The notes beneath the pieces were generated by a model. It searched no databases, was not told where the DNA came from, and worked only from the letters and a program-made list of their open reading frames with translations. Below, piece by piece: positions 4,059 to 16,699 of a stretch of DNA of 64,000 nt. Positions within the stretch are counted from its first letter, which is position 1. Every line of letters starts with the position of its first letter. Source of the DNA: a marine group bacterium Sva0996 bin134. GTDB taxonomy: Bacteria; Actinomycetota; Acidimicrobiia; Acidimicrobiales; Bin134. Both the position numbers and the translations under genes were made by a program. The DNA is taken from positions 1 to 64,000 of the forward strand of contig MPNQ01000015.1 in NCBI GenBank assembly GCA_002239105.1, given 5' to 3'.

Positions 4059-6008
4059 GTGCTCTCTGAGCTGGGGCGAAATTTAATGCGGAAGTGGGCC
4101 TGGGAAGAGTTTGACCCCAGCCGGACGAGCACCTCGGGTGACATCTCCAAGCTGTTCCGCAACGAGCCAGTCAAAGAACCTGGGGTGTTCGTACTCAACG
4201 CTCCGCCGTCAAACGCAACGGTGATGGCGCGCGAGGTCATCCAGAACTCATGGGACGCGGCTCTTGAGGCTCAAGCACACAGTACTGGTCCCCCTCTCGA
4301 CTTTGGGCTGCTATTCGACTTCAAGACCGCCTCTGGGCCAGACAGGGCCAACTTGATCACCGCCCTTGCTCTGCACCAGCTTGCACAGCGAGTCCACGAT
4401 TATGAAACACAAGCTGACGAGTACCGAAGGCGGGACCTCGGTTTGGCCGACCATCTTTGCCTAGATGAGCTGGATTCCCCTTCGTATTCTCTACCACACC
4501 TAGTAATCAGCGAAACAGGCACCACCGGCATGTATGGGAGCTGGGAGAGCGGTGAATCGCGAATGTACCTAGCTCTGGCCACCCTGGGGTGGACACCCAA
4601 GAGAGAAGGGGGAGGATCCTATGGCTATGGCAAGGCCGGATTGATCCGAGGATCAGCCACCCGCACTGTCATTGCCTACACATGTTTTCCTGAGCGGTCT
4701 GACGAACCCGGCGTAACCAGACGGCTCTTCGGCATGACTTACTGGGGCGATCACAAGATGGAAAGGGGCAGGTATACCGGGTTCGCCCGTTTCGGTGATG
4801 AGACTGGCGATGGCAACATCGTCCCCTTCCAGAACGAGAAAGCCGATGAAGTGGCTGCATCCCTGGACCTCTTACGTCGCAGCCCCGAGCGCAGGGACGA
4901 GCGGGGACCAGGTACCACATTCCTGCTGGTCGAACCGCTCGTAGAGGCCGAGGATCTTCAGCGGGCGGTTGAACGCTACTGGTGGCCTGCACTGGAAGAT
5001 CCATCCATCGAGTTTTCTGTGACGATCAGCCAGCCAAACAGACAGGTACTCCATCCCCGACCCCGGCGAGACCCGGTGCTCCGGTCGTTCATTGAGGCAT
5101 ACGAGACGGCCACCGTGTCCCAGGACAACACACACTCCTACAAGCGCGCGCACAGGCTGCACGCGATCAGTGGCTTCTCCTCACCCGGCACGCTCGGACT
5201 GGTTGTGAACCCGGACGACTGGTCGTATCCCCACCAGACCCAGACCGAAGCCCCCACACCCACTGACCACCGCAGCCTGGTCGCGTTGATGCGAAAGCCC
5301 CGCATGGTAGTGGAGTACTGGGATGCGGGCAGAACAATGCCATTCGTTAGGGGGGCGTTCGTCGCAGACGACTCCATCGATGACGCCCTACGCGACACCG
5401 AGCCGAAGAGTCACGATGCCTGGCAGACCAAGGCCGACGACGACTCCGACGCCAGTACCACCGCGATCAACTACGAAGCGGCCCGTACATTGCTCAATCG
5501 GATAAAGAGGCATGTAAATAAGTTCAGAGATGACCTCAAACCGCCGCCGCGGCCACAAGAACAAGTGCGCCTTCCCGAGTTTGACCGCATCATGGCCAAG
5601 ATCATGAGAGGCGCGGGCCCAGGCAAGCCAGGACCTGCCCCCGAGCCCCGACCGGTGACTATCCACCTGACCCCGATGGCCGAGCCAGTGGACAACAAGC
5701 AGGTGCGAGTCACCGGTCAAGCCGAGTTTGCATTGAGCGACAACTTCGACGGCGACCACTCGAATGCTCTCATCCGCCTTCGTTATCTCTTCGATGAGGA
5801 TGGCCGTTCCGGTGATCGGGCATTACTGGGCATAAATGCTCCTGAGGGCTTCGATGCCACCGAAGACCCTGGCACCTTCATTGGGATGCTCCACCGAGAC
5901 AGTCCAGCCACCTTTGAGTTCTCCAGCAACCCGCACCTCGCTCTATGGGCGGGCACGGTCTTTGCGGAGGCTGATCTGCTGCCCAGCGACTCCCTCGCAA
6001 ACGAATAG
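4059..6008 (+). CDS. GHKL-fold ATPase (MORC/MutL-like), defence-island type
   Basis: 649 residues from a GTG; an ATG at 4086 would give 640 residues, and neither has a strong ribosome binding site. The N-box is clear at 57-68 (AREVIQNSWDAA: E59, N63, D66). A degenerate second motif, SETGTTG, lies at 151-157 where DxGxG is usual, and a Gly-rich ATP lid GGGSYGYGKAG at 184-194. Residues after about 280 match no domain I know. Prokaryotic GHKL ATPases of the MORC/MutL type are known from restriction-modification-linked gene sets, where they are thought to act as ATP-driven DNA clamps. This one heads a compact operon ending in a cytosine methyltransferase. Confidence 0.8.
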   Translation: MLSELGRNLMRKWAWEEFDPSRTSTSGDISKLFRNEPVKEPGVFVLNAPPSNATVMAREVIQNSWDAALEAQAHSTGPPLDFGLLFDFKTASGPDRANLITALALHQLAQRVHDYETQADEYRRRDLGLADHLCLDELDSPSYSLPHLVISETGTTGMYGSWESGESRMYLALATLGWTPKREGGGSYGYGKAGLIRGSATRTVIAYTCFPERSDEPGVTRRLFGMTYWGDHKMERGRYTGFARFGDETGDGNIVPFQNEKADEVAASLDLLRRSPERRDERGPGTTFLLVEPLVEAEDLQRAVERYWWPALEDPSIEFSVTISQPNRQVLHPRPRRDPVLRSFIEAYETATVSQDNTHSYKRAHRLHAISGFSSPGTLGLVVNPDDWSYPHQTQTEAPTPTDHRSLVALMRKPRMVVEYWDAGRTMPFVRGAFVADDSIDDALRDTEPKSHDAWQTKADDDSDASTTAINYEAARTLLNRIKRHVNKFRDDLKPPPRPQEQVRLPEFDRIMAKIMRGAGPGKPGPAPEPRPVTIHLTPMAEPVDNKQVRVTGQAEFALSDNFDGDHSNALIRLRYLFDEDGRSGDRALLGINAPEGFDATEDPGTFIGMLHRDSPATFEFSSNPHLALWAGTVFAEADLLPSDSLANE

Positions 6009-6011
6009 CAG

Positions 6012-7001
6012 ATGTACAAGGAAACCCGCCCTGTCCGGCCATTTTCGGTTCCCGTGGAGTTCCATCGGGCACTGGAGAGTGTCCGATTCCATATGGGCGA
6101 CCAAGGCTGCGAGCCTGACTCCCAAATCGTGGTTGGGCCGCATGAGGAATGGCTACGAACCAAGCCTGAACTGGTATTGGCGACTGGCGAAACCGAGTTC
6201 ACCGACTTCAAGAAAACGCTGGCCGTCGGCGTGGAGGAATCAGGATGCGATCCCGCCGCCCTTGGCCTCGTCGTCACCGCGTATACCAAGTACTTGAGGA
6301 TCATCGACATCCTGCTGCGTCACCGCTTGGATGATCTCGACACGCTCCCTCGCACACGCGAATTCGCCGGTATTCACCGTCCCGCCGCCCTGCAAGCGAG
6401 TACCCACGGCACAGTCATCGTTGCATACGTAATGCTGTTGGATGACCAGCCACCGGTCGCGCTTAAGCCTTGGCGCAAGGGAACTTATCTGGCGAAAGTC
6501 GGTTTCCGCCTTGAAACTGAGACTGCTAAGGAGATGTTCCGGCCCACGCCACTTGACGACGACGCCCGTCACCGACTCAACCTCCCCAAGAGCACCGTCC
6601 GCTTCTTCAGCATCGGCGAGCACAATCCGCTTGAGCCCTACGACGAGAGCGAACAGCCCGAATTATATGTGGACACGGATTTGTTAACTCAGATTGACCA
6701 CGCAGCCAGCTCCCCCGTAGGTAGGGCTCTCCAAACTCAGCTAGCCTGCGATTTCATATCCGGGGTGGTACTGGCGTGCACTGCCCGGGCCGAAGAGCTT
6801 GAAGGTGCCACCTGGGAAACACTCCAAGACTCCCTTCTCGGCCGAATCATCGGGCTCATTGCCGGGTCTGGGGCCGATGCCGCACGGCGCAATCAGCTCA
6901 TCACCGATGCGCGCTCCAATCCGGCCCGCCTCATCGCCCTCGCAGAAGATGCCTTACGAGTACGAAAAACCCTGCTTGACTCGTTCTCGGAGGGCTCGTG
7001 A
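6012..7001 (+). CDS. Uncharacterised protein of the GHKL-methyltransferase operon
   Basis: 329 residues; its ATG follows the ATPase stop by three bases. I recognise no domain. It is soluble, with no signal peptide or membrane helix, and has an acidic middle part (EPYDESEQPELYVDTD) and a helical C-terminal third (LLGRIIGLIAGSGADAARR). No nuclease signature such as PD-(D/E)xK, HNH or HKD is evident. Its constant spacing and overlap with neighbours imply a role in the same system, perhaps as partner of the ATPase. Confidence 0.75.
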   Translation: MYKETRPVRPFSVPVEFHRALESVRFHMGDQGCEPDSQIVVGPHEEWLRTKPELVLATGETEFTDFKKTLAVGVEESGCDPAALGLVVTAYTKYLRIIDILLRHRLDDLDTLPRTREFAGIHRPAALQASTHGTVIVAYVMLLDDQPPVALKPWRKGTYLAKVGFRLETETAKEMFRPTPLDDDARHRLNLPKSTVRFFSIGEHNPLEPYDESEQPELYVDTDLLTQIDHAASSPVGRALQTQLACDFISGVVLACTARAEELEGATWETLQDSLLGRIIGLIAGSGADAARRNQLITDARSNPARLIALAEDALRVRKTLLDSFSEGS

Positions 7002-7732
7002 GGTATCCAACGCTGACACTGAGTGCTTGTCGAGAACTCGCCGAAGAGCGGATGAACTCACCAGACCATCAACCCAACATTGAGGCTCGGTGGGTAGGTG
7101 AGGGCGATGACCTCGCCCTCAGCCGCCTCAAAGAGGCGGCGCACATGTGCTCAATGCTGCTTGAAGAAAACCGCTCGGCTAGCGATAAGGATCCAATTGA
7201 GGGGGAGGCAGCAAAGCACCTCTACAACGCGCTTCTGCCCGCAAACGAAGCCCAAGCTTTCGTTCCGGTTCCGGTACTAGACGACCCCGGCTTCTGGCGG
7301 TACCTGAGCATTGATTACTTCTGGGGCTTCATCGCCTGGCGAGAGAAGAAGCCGTTTGAGAACGGCAACCATATGAAGTACATCGATGGAAGAAACCAAG
7401 CGGAGTGCGTACTGCTCCGGATGTTCTTGAGGGTCGCGGCGCTGGGAGGGGCAGAGCACGCTGATCTCGCCTACAAGCTCCCCAGGGCCATCGACTTCTG
7501 GCGCAGCCATGTGATACGAGTCCGTACAGCCACCGCGCCCGCGCTAACCAGGGCGATAGTTGAGCTTCAGGCCGCCGACCGCCTAATGACCGAAGACCTG
7601 AGGGAATTCGCCAAGCGGGTCAATCGGACATGGTCGAATGTGCTCTTGAATATCTACAACCAAACTGAGGCCGAAGACCTTCTGCGGGAATTGCGGACCG
7701 GATTGGTTAACCGCAACGAGGAACAGTCTTGA
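6998..7732 (+). CDS. Uncharacterised protein of the same operon, possibly DUF6339
   Basis: 244 residues from a GTG overlapping the previous stop by four bases (GTGA). The opening RYPTLTLSACRELAEE and the segment FWRYLSIDYFWGFIAWREKK recall the family called DUF6339, which has no known function; this is from memory and unverified. A mostly helical, Trp/Arg-rich protein without signal peptide. Its end overlaps the TTG start of the methyltransferase, so all four products are probably made in coordinated amounts. Confidence 0.75.
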   Translation: MRYPTLTLSACRELAEERMNSPDHQPNIEARWVGEGDDLALSRLKEAAHMCSMLLEENRSASDKDPIEGEAAKHLYNALLPANEAQAFVPVPVLDDPGFWRYLSIDYFWGFIAWREKKPFENGNHMKYIDGRNQAECVLLRMFLRVAALGGAEHADLAYKLPRAIDFWRSHVIRVRTATAPALTRAIVELQAADRLMTEDLREFAKRVNRTWSNVLLNIYNQTEAEDLLRELRTGLVNRNEEQS

Positions 7733-9072
7733 CCGCCTCTAGCCCGCCCCAGCCACTCGATAGCTGTCGCCTTGGCGAGTTGCACGCTGATCAGTGCTTC
7801 CACCTTGATGCCGATCGGCTGGTCCGCCGACTCACGCTGGGGTCGCGGGTAATCGAATCATCTGTAAAGGTGTACCCAGGCGATGAGAGAGCCGCCCGTT
7901 CAGATCCCTTGGGCATGTGGTGGACCGCCTATTTGGAAGGGCGGCTTCCTTCTACAGACCAGGTCACAGACCGGCTGGGTGTCGTCGACCTTTTCTGCGG
8001 ATCGGGAGGGCTGGCCCTAGGCACCCGGCTGCTGGCCGCAGAGATGGGCCTCAGTCTGGTGAACGAGTTGATCGTGGACTCCGATGCCGATGCCACTGCG
8101 ACTCTGGCCGCAAACCACGATGTGCGAATTCGTCGTACTGAATCGGTGACCTCGCTAGTGGACTTCCGGGTGCGGGGAAGCGGCGACGACGCAGAGTTCA
8201 CCTATCAGCCTGAGTTGCTTGACGAACAGGTAGTAGCTGGGGCTGATCGAGCCGACCTGCTCACCGCTGGTCCGCCGTGTCAAGGCCATTCCAATCTAAA
8301 TAACCGCTCTCGGCGATCGGACATGCGGAACCACCTCATGCTGACCGTCCCCGCCTTTGCGGTGGCCGCCGGGATCAGATGCGTCGTTATAGAGAACGTT
8401 CCTGCAGTGGTTCACGATGACGCCAGCGTGATCGCCACCACCAAGGCGCTCTTGGCATCGGCAGGCTACCGGGTAACCGACGGCGTACTGGCCTCGGACA
8501 AAATGGGATGGCCGCAAACCCGGAAACGGTACTTCATGGTGGCATGCCACAACGCTGAGCCAGTCCCATTGGACGCAGTGGCAAGCTGCTTGGCTGACGA
8601 GAAACCCCGCACTCTTGAGTGGGCGCTCAGCCACCTTGACAGCTGGGCCGCTGACGAGACCGATCCGATGGATCAGCCGACGGAGCATAATCAGGAGAAC
8701 CAGAGGCGGATCGATTGGCTGTTCGAAAATAACGAGTACGACTTGGCGCTCTCGGAGCGACCGGAATGCCACAAAGACGGCACCAGCTACACATCGGTGT
8801 ACGGAAGGATGAGGCCCGATGAGCCCGCTCCAACTATTACTACCGGCTTCACAACGCCGGGGAGGGGCCGCTTTGTCCACCCCAATAATCGCCGCACGTT
8901 AACCCCTCGAGAAGCCGCTGTGATCCAAGGGTTCCCCCTTGACTACTGCTTCATCACAGAGTCGGGATCATCGCCTTCTAGGACTCAACTGTCCAAGTGG
9001 ATCGGCGATGCCGTACCGATGCCATTGGGATATGCGGCTGCCTTGAGTGCCTTAGCAGCGACACCAGTGTGA
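7729..9072 (+). CDS. DNA (cytosine-5) methyltransferase
   Basis: 447 residues from a TTG start overlapping the upstream stop. The standard motif order is visible: I (VVDLFCGSGG, 85-94), IV with catalytic C184 (GPPCQGHS), VI (ENV, 222-224), VIII (QTRKRYF, 263-269), IX (RTLTPREAAVIQGFP, 389-403) and X (IGDAVP, 425-430). The target-recognition stretch between VIII and IX is short, so specificity cannot be read. About 84 residues precede motif I, longer than usual. It methylates C5 of cytosine in a specific sequence; here it could mark self DNA for the GHKL system. Confidence 0.95.
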   Translation: MTASSPPQPLDSCRLGELHADQCFHLDADRLVRRLTLGSRVIESSVKVYPGDERAARSDPLGMWWTAYLEGRLPSTDQVTDRLGVVDLFCGSGGLALGTRLLAAEMGLSLVNELIVDSDADATATLAANHDVRIRRTESVTSLVDFRVRGSGDDAEFTYQPELLDEQVVAGADRADLLTAGPPCQGHSNLNNRSRRSDMRNHLMLTVPAFAVAAGIRCVVIENVPAVVHDDASVIATTKALLASAGYRVTDGVLASDKMGWPQTRKRYFMVACHNAEPVPLDAVASCLADEKPRTLEWALSHLDSWAADETDPMDQPTEHNQENQRRIDWLFENNEYDLALSERPECHKDGTSYTSVYGRMRPDEPAPTITTGFTTPGRGRFVHPNNRRTLTPREAAVIQGFPLDYCFITESGSSPSRTQLSKWIGDAVPMPLGYAAALSALAATPV

Positions 9073-15010: not shown

Positions 15011-16699
15011 GTGGGTGTTCGTGAGGATGTGATTGAGGAGCTGACTGGGGCGGGCGGGTTGTTCGAGCTGACCACCGAGGAAGTTCTGGGGCAGCAGGCC
15101 GTGGTGTTCGCCAGCCGGATGCGCTCGCTGCGGGAGATGGTGGCCAATACCGCCAATTTCGGCGACCGGGAGTTTCTGGTGCTGGAAGGCCAGCGGCTCA
15201 CCTTCGACGGCTTTATTTCCCAGGTGGCGGCGGCCGCGGCTGCCCTGCGATTGCGGGGTATCGGCCATGGCGACCGGGTGGCCATCTTTGCGGCCAACTG
15301 CCCTGAGTGGGTGGTTTCGTTCTTCGCCGCCACCAGCATTGGGGCCGTCGTGTCGGCCTACAACGGCTGGTGGACCGCCGACGAGGTGGATTACGCCACC
15401 TCGCTCAGCACTCCGGCGCTGGTGATCGCCGACCGCCCCCGCCTCGAGCGCTCCGGTATCGGCAGCACCGACGCTCCGTGTCTGGTGATCGAGGACGACT
15501 GGGCTGGGTACTTGGCCTCTGGGGCCGGAGCCACCTTGGAAGACATCGACGTGGCCTTGGCCGAGGACGACCCCGCGGTGATCTTGTTCACCAGCGGCAC
15601 CACCGGCCGCCCCAAGGGGGCGGTGGGCTCGCATCGGGGGCTTATCGGCTTCGTGCAGTCCACCATGATGAACGGGGCGGTGCGGGTGTTCGCCGAGATG
15701 CGCACCCATCCCCCCGCCGACGACGGCTCGGCCTCCGCCCCGCCAGCCCAGGCGGTGACGCTGGGCACCTCGCCGCTGTTCCATGTTTCGGGGCTGTACG
15801 GATCCACGCTCATCTCCATGGTGACCGGGGGCAAGATCGTCTACCGCCGGGGCCGTTTCGATCCCGAGGCGGTGCTCGGGCTCATCCAAGACGAAGGCGT
15901 CACCGCCTTCGCCGCGCTGGGCAGCATCGGCTCGCGGCTGGTGAACCACCCCCGGTTCGGGGAGTTCGACACCTCCAGCATCGTCAACGTGGGCTTCGGC
16001 GGCGCACCGGCCAGCCCCGCAGTTCAAGACCGGATGCGCCAGGCCTTCCCCAACGCCGCCCACGCAGTGGGAATGGGCTACGGCTCATCGGAGTCGGTGG
16101 CGGTCATCGCCGGCATCGGCGGCGCCGAGTATCGGGAGCGGCCCACCTCGTGCGGCCAGGTGTCAATCGGCTTCGAGGCCGAGGTGCGCGGCCCCGACGG
16201 CCAGCCGCTGCCCACGGGTCAAGAGGGCGACATCTGGTGCCGCAGCGCCTACACCATGCTCGAGTACTGGAACGATCCCGCCGCCACCGCGGCCACCATC
16301 GACGCCGACCGGTGGCTGAACACCGGCGACATCGGCTGCTTCGACGACGACGGGTACCTCTACATCAACTCGCGGGCCCGCGACATGATCCTGCGCAACG
16401 CCGAGAACATCTACCCCATCGAGATTGAATACCGCTTAGACGCCCATCCGCTGGTGGCCGAATCAGCCGTGTTCGGCGTGGACCACCCTGAGATGGGCCA
16501 AGAGGTCAAGGCCGTGGTGGTGCCGGTTGACGGCACTCAGGTCGAAGCCGACGACCTGGCCCAGTGGTGCAAGGAAGTGCTCGCCCCCTACAAGATCCCC
16601 ACCCAATGGGAGATCCGGCCCCCCCCCCCACCAAGCCCCCCCCCCACGGGAGCACCCCCCCCCCCCCCCCCCCCCGCACCCCCGCCGGCAAAGTGGTAA
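15011..16699 (+). CDS. Acyl-CoA synthetase (AMP-forming), 3' end frameshifted
   Basis: Adenylate-forming enzyme: P-loop FTSGTTGRPKGA, then GMGYGSSES, and TGDIGCFDDDGYLYINSRARDMI. It activates a carboxylic acid, probably a fatty acid, to its CoA thioester. The open frame ends at 16699 after an implausible Pro-rich tail coded by C runs at 16619-16675. In another frame, PAGKVVKRELYS-stop follows at 16681-16719; this is the conserved C-terminal PxGKxxK motif with the catalytic Lys. The true gene therefore runs to 16719, and the frame is broken by the C-rich block. GTG start; no clear ribosome binding site. Confidence 0.88.
   Translation: MGVREDVIEELTGAGGLFELTTEEVLGQQAVVFASRMRSLREMVANTANFGDREFLVLEGQRLTFDGFISQVAAAAAALRLRGIGHGDRVAIFAANCPEWVVSFFAATSIGAVVSAYNGWWTADEVDYATSLSTPALVIADRPRLERSGIGSTDAPCLVIEDDWAGYLASGAGATLEDIDVALAEDDPAVILFTSGTTGRPKGAVGSHRGLIGFVQSTMMNGAVRVFAEMRTHPPADDGSASAPPAQAVTLGTSPLFHVSGLYGSTLISMVTGGKIVYRRGRFDPEAVLGLIQDEGVTAFAALGSIGSRLVNHPRFGEFDTSSIVNVGFGGAPASPAVQDRMRQAFPNAAHAVGMGYGSSESVAVIAGIGGAEYRERPTSCGQVSIGFEAEVRGPDGQPLPTGQEGDIWCRSAYTMLEYWNDPAATAATIDADRWLNTGDIGCFDDDGYLYINSRARDMILRNAENIYPIEIEYRLDAHPLVAESAVFGVDHPEMGQEVKAVVVPVDGTQVEADDLAQWCKEVLAPYKIPTQWEIRPPPPPSPPPTGAPPPPPPPAPPPAKW
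16591..16675 (+). repeat. Corrupted tandem copy with poly-C runs
   Basis: The segment from 16591 (CAAGATCCCCACCC...) reappears 41 bases later at 16632 as CAAG, ten C, ACGGGAGCA and a 21-C run. A/T positions of the first copy are mostly replaced by C. C runs measure 11 (16619-16629), 10 (16636-16645) and 21 (16655-16675). The block breaks the acyl-CoA ligase frame. Most simply a sequencing or assembly error. Confidence 0.75.

Follow-up and report, generated by a model that had tools for sequence, protein, structure and literature searches.

Organization of the locus

Four genes reading in the same direction lie near the start of the window, which is the whole stretch of 64,000 nucleotides analysed from contig MPNQ01000015.1 of the bacterium Sva0996 bin134 (genome G000). 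The genes and their motifs are as follows.

4059..6008, + strand: putative GHKL-type ATPase, PDC-M33A relative, 649 aa; an alternative start at ATG 4086 is possible
~4230-4256, + strand: N-box of the ATPase
4611-4634, + strand: G2 box of the ATPase
5400-5423, + strand: EPxxHDxW (ExxxH) motif of the ATPase
6012..7001, + strand: ORF2, in the PDC-M33B position, 329 aa, without a Pfam family
6998..7732, + strand: ORF3, DUF6339 / PDC-M33C relative, 244 aa
7729..9072, + strand: C5 cytosine DNA methyltransferase, 447 aa, with an N-terminal extension of ~75 residues and the catalytic GPPCQG at 8270-8287

The original prediction described these genes as coupled, with gaps of 3 bases or less and three overlapping starts. 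The spacing stands, with 3 bases between the ATPase gene and ORF2, but there are two overlaps and not three, each of 4 bases, at ORF2/ORF3 (GTGA) and at ORF3/methyltransferase (TTGA). The operon is not a chance arrangement, since relatives share the four-gene order, with identities of 43-59% for the ATPase and 49-65% for the methyltransferase. Promoter and terminator scans gave no scores above those of shuffled sequences. The setting is as it had been described: the GC content of the operon is 59.4% compared with 65.0% in the window, and a Phd/PIN pair adjoins it upstream, in which the PIN gene matches PF10130 at 1.6e-30 and the Phd match is weak. Elsewhere in the window, positions 393-1316 encode a predicted secreted or anchored protein that contains an MGDDD/MADDD repeat of short period.

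The GHKL-type ATPase

No GHKL family was assigned to the window ATPase by Pfam search. The perfect N-box claimed for it (RExxQNxxD) is real and is invariant across 12 homologues, as are the G2 box (GGxxGxGK) and the GT of G3; in the G1 box the window protein has Glu and most homologues have Asp. Residues E448, H452, and W455 of EPxxHDxW are common to the 12 homologues. The G1/G2 region gave a profile match to proteins found with HATPase_c_3 (E 8.5e-5, probability 60%; controls 0.055-0.9), and the motifs together with this modest match suggest a protein of GHKL type. The prediction had allowed for a housekeeping assignment, and the protein lies outside the housekeeping families. Against the PADLOC models it matches PDC-M33A at 3e-11 in two stretches, and an HMM of distant homologues, built with the window clade removed, found it at 5.7e-50. 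A PDB sequence search with the profiles of the ATPase, ORF2, and ORF3 returned nothing significant.

In the passages of Iyer et al. (2008, PMC2292703) on these families, the mark of paraMORC2 is an ExxxH motif located C-terminally within the S5 domain, and paraMORCs were already placed in restriction-modification operons. The window ATPase carries both the GHKL motifs and ExxxH, and the latter presumably sits in an S5 fold. The MORC-specific S5 motif GhXhhpXXRhl is absent from this protein and from eight homologues. Two related ATPases have additional domains. A single ORF of 1198 residues in G227 (L024 11034-14627, minus strand) encodes a PDC-M33A-type ATPase joined in one chain to HTH_3 and sigma-70 regions 2, 3, and 4; in G544 (L070 5456-7579) the ATPase is extended at its N-terminus by a segment resembling, from its sequence, an HTH of Xre type.

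ORF2 and ORF3

ORF3 matched DUF6339 (PF19866) at 0.0011, which is under the Pfam cut-off, and PADLOC PDC-M33C weakly at 0.025. A held-out HMM with the window clade removed gave 1.8e-7, and a profile-profile comparison 6.8e-13. Searched alone, the window ORF2 matched neither PDC-M33B nor the held-out HMM, and it has no Pfam family and no recognised nuclease motif. The profile of its clade matched the distant ORF2 profile at E 1.7e-5 (mismatched controls, 0.06-0.7), and PDC-M33B was matched by 2 of 14 aligned ORF2 proteins, the best at 3.7e-63. Homology of the window ORF2 to the distant set has no more than moderate support from these profiles. AlphaFold models were of low confidence, with a pLDDT of 40 for ORF3 (two-row alignment) and 34 for ORF2 (three-row alignment).

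Methyltransferase and search for a nuclease

The fourth product had been predicted to be a C5 methyltransferase with all motifs; GPPCQ, ENV, and QxRxR are present, and the Pfam DNA_methylase match is 2.8e-34. It also matches the PADLOC models DruM (1.4e-75), MTase_II (2e-66), and DrmMII (1e-26). Membership in Druantia or DISARM, as these matches might imply, was rejected because the other operon proteins match no Druantia or DISARM model. In one genome (G238), DUF6339 is fused to DNA_methylase. Genes for repair of m5C deamination (T:G mismatches), Vsr or HhH-GPD, often accompany the methyltransferase-linked triads of ATPase, ORF2, and DUF6339 genes: Vsr adjoins the methyltransferase in G103, G383, and G538 and is annotated in Deinococcus, and an HhH-GPD gene lies at the Halomicrobium triad. 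Such partners are usual with restriction-modification methyltransferases and are also found with solitary ones. The window genome has a Vsr gene (C14:131328-131519) that is unlinked to the operon.

No nuclease family or motif was recognised in the four operon proteins by searches that included Pfam and PADLOC, and a nuclease may be hidden in ORF2 or ORF3 under an unfamiliar fold. With none found in the gene set, the system is a putative restriction system, and its final effect may be to cut DNA, to block it, or to do no more than assist the methyltransferase.

Conservation and partners of the triad

The order GHKL-ORF2-DUF6339 was followed by a profile scan of fetched loci; the profiles had been built from several of these loci, G383 and G544 not among them. 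It is kept in the window, G001, G004, G005, G103, G383, G544, G227, G238, and G331, actinobacterial-type genomes among them, and also in haloarchaea, Synechococcus, Deinococcus, Lactococcus, and rhizobia. The neighbourhood comparison proposed with the original prediction, which homologues scattered apart would have refuted, was in its favour: across six major lineages or more, the triad stays together. A methyltransferase gene in the same direction lies directly downstream in the window, G001, G004, G005, G103, G383, G331, and Synechococcus, and the triads of Agrobacterium, Rhizobium, and G544 are without one in the stretch examined. The recurring order and the often adjacent methyltransferase bear out the view of a conserved gene set tied to DNA modification.

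Z1 occurs at the triad loci of Agrobacterium, Rhizobium, G238, G331, and Synechococcus, and DUF4420, a putative PD-(D/E)XK family, at those of G238 and Synechococcus. One Synechococcus plasmid carries a methyltransferase-triad and a Z1-DUF4420-triad back to back. A scan of genome contigs returned one sibling, and those of viral contigs gave no relatives; the haloarchaeal ATPase has a match in one short phage record. The haloarchaeal and G331 triads lie near genes that are DISARM-like by annotation or sequence reading (L002, L027, L028, L026), namely DUF1998 or Zn-binding, phospholipase D, and helicase genes. On plasmids of Halomicrobium and Halobacterium DL1 (L002, L029), a second PDC-M33A-type ATPase is encoded in the same region on the opposite strand.

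The Z1-less four-gene form

Z1 and AIPR had been reported missing from the locus. Z1 is absent from the operon and from the whole of G000 as assembled (93.8% complete), as is DUF4420 from the same assembly. The absence of AIPR holds at the locus, and an AIPR-type gene is present elsewhere in the genome (C28:4424-4867), unlinked to the operon. In an unrooted tree of 21 ATPases the Z1-linked proteins form one group, with the window clade as its neighbour (100/99). The ATPase of the Synechococcus four-gene copy is placed elsewhere in this unrooted tree, on a long branch, and two ATPase lineages thus carry the four-gene order. The description of the operon as reduced fits the Z1-less form, but loss of Z1 is not demonstrated by an unrooted tree, which is compatible both with loss and with Z1 never having been present.

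The four-gene form is intact in the window, G103, and G383, among which ATPase identities are 43-57%. Values of dN/dS were 0.08-0.17 for window/G001, the ATPase and ORF2 being compared in part, and 0.19-0.29 for G103/G383; in the window/G004 pair, synonymous sites were saturated. In the pairs tested, purifying selection acts on each of the four genes. The intact copies and the low dN/dS of every gene argue that the form is being maintained and is not plainly decay. What is new is a stable four-gene form, Z1-less and DUF4420-less, with an ATPase clade placed next to the Z1-linked one in the unrooted tree.

Insertion and decay

The sequences flanking the locus (to ~3190 and from ~9089) are adjacent, 29-46 bases apart, in 5 of the 8 relatives examined, and ~730 bases separate them in G013. 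Empty sites in relatives mark the locus as an insertion. In G007 the Phd/PIN pair is present without the operon, and the last 143 bases of the methyltransferase gene are retained as a deletion scar; G021 likewise has Phd/PIN without the operon, and the pair was for this reason rejected as a component of the system. The operon copy of G001 lies elsewhere, beside genes reading as NADH dehydrogenase subunits.

Several copies are broken. The methyltransferase gene is open in G004 and G005, in which the ATPase is out of frame, and in G001, in which ORF2 is out of frame; G538 retains only a shortened DUF6339, the methyltransferase, and Vsr. Both arms are broken or missing in G021, G055, G536, and G490, and no locus of the window clade has an intact ATPase with a broken methyltransferase. 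These draft genomes give a weak indication (4 cases to 0) that the methyltransferase outlasts the ATPase or ORF2 in decay, as would be predicted of a restriction-like partner.

Comparison with known systems

In gene order the triad agrees with PDC-M33, a PADLOC phage-defence candidate in which A is the ATPase, B is ORF2, and C is DUF6339. The window ATPase and ORF3 belong to the A and C families, and ORF2 holds the B position and is probably of the B family; this comparison was made with the PADLOC HMMs alone. The Halomicrobium homologues match PDC-M33A at 2e-22 and PDC-M33C at 6e-14. Together with the PADLOC matches of the window proteins and the held-out and profile-profile tests, these point to a divergent PDC-M33 relative, which differs in being joined to a C5 methyltransferase. 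To call the system undescribed was too strong, given this candidate and the paraMORC2 motif of the ATPase (PMC2292703). A literature search found no paper naming PDC-M33 or DUF6339 and no phage assay of PDC-M33.

The window ATPase is likened to paraMORC2 by motif. The passages of Iyer et al. (PMC2292703) on this family stress helicase and RE-fold partners, neither of which was recognised in the window operon, and name no ORF2 or DUF6339 partner. Triads related to the window's occur with MzaC-like (Z1) and MzaD-like (DUF4420) proteins of Mza in G238, and the Agrobacterium triad sits with an MzaC-like Z1 protein; no window protein matches an Mza model among the matches listed. VcSduA, a Shedu protein with a paraMORC3 domain, has a GHKL ATPase like the window protein, required for phage defence as shown by mutation, but also a PD-(D/E)XK nuclease domain of its own (PMC12137116), and none was recognised in the window ATPase.

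Interpretation

On balance, the Z1-less four-gene form of PDC-M33 is more likely than not to be a mobile self/non-self DNA system of the restriction-modification kind, guided by modification. The methyltransferase, its family assigned from sequence, would mark host DNA, and the ATPase, ORF2, and DUF6339 protein would form one complex, as suggested by their fixed order in distant lineages and by the G238 fusion. The complex may close ATP-dependently on unmodified DNA, in the manner of MutL/MORC-type ATPases, and once closed would block that DNA or recruit a nuclease encoded elsewhere. A restriction free of any nuclease, in which a methylation-gated GHKL clamp with two adaptors traps or compacts unmethylated invading DNA and does not cut it, is distinctly unlikely; if true, it would be a bacterial counterpart of MORC-type silencing. 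These findings link PDC-M33, an uncharacterised candidate, and DUF6339, an orphan family of Pfam, with C5 methylation as well as with Z1/DUF4420 proteins, and the minimal four-gene form offers a direct test case for a MORC-like ATPase restricting DNA without a nuclease.

The triad might instead serve the methyltransferase as an accessory complex, targeting or regulating it, so that the output would be methylation (for gene regulation or as protection against other enzymes) and not defence. The DUF6339-methyltransferase fusion, the lack of a recognised nuclease, and the methyltransferase being the arm most often retained in decaying operons are in keeping with this. It is nevertheless unlikely, since triads occur both without a methyltransferase in the stretch examined and with Z1 and the putative nuclease DUF4420; the Vsr and HhH partners speak in the same direction, though less firmly for their occurrence with solitary enzymes. 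It is improbable that the operon is what is left of a larger restriction system of Z1 type, with Z1 and nuclease lost and a methyltransferase remaining among non-functional passengers: three intact copies with divergent ATPases and low dN/dS for all four genes count against this, despite the pairing of the window clade with the Z1-linked clade and the decay of several sibling loci. Abortive infection, in which the triad is toxic unless DNA bears the methyltransferase mark and an unmarked invader triggers growth arrest, is quite improbable. A toxic partner would be lost early, as the ATPase or ORF2 was in four loci, and the poly-C tract at which the G004 ATPase frame is broken could be a switch; no toxin domain was found, the counts are small, and poly-C runs may be artefacts.

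Homopolymer tracts

The tract in the G004 ATPase gene (L013 6014-6030) is C17, out of frame at 17 and open at 15 or 18. In the window, runs of C11, C10, and C21 at 16619-16676 scramble the final part of an ORF for an acyl-CoA ligase (15011-16699) and are probably an artefact of sequence or assembly. These similar runs suggest that the C17 tract is a sequencing artefact as well, and phase variation by this tract was set aside as a lead at most.
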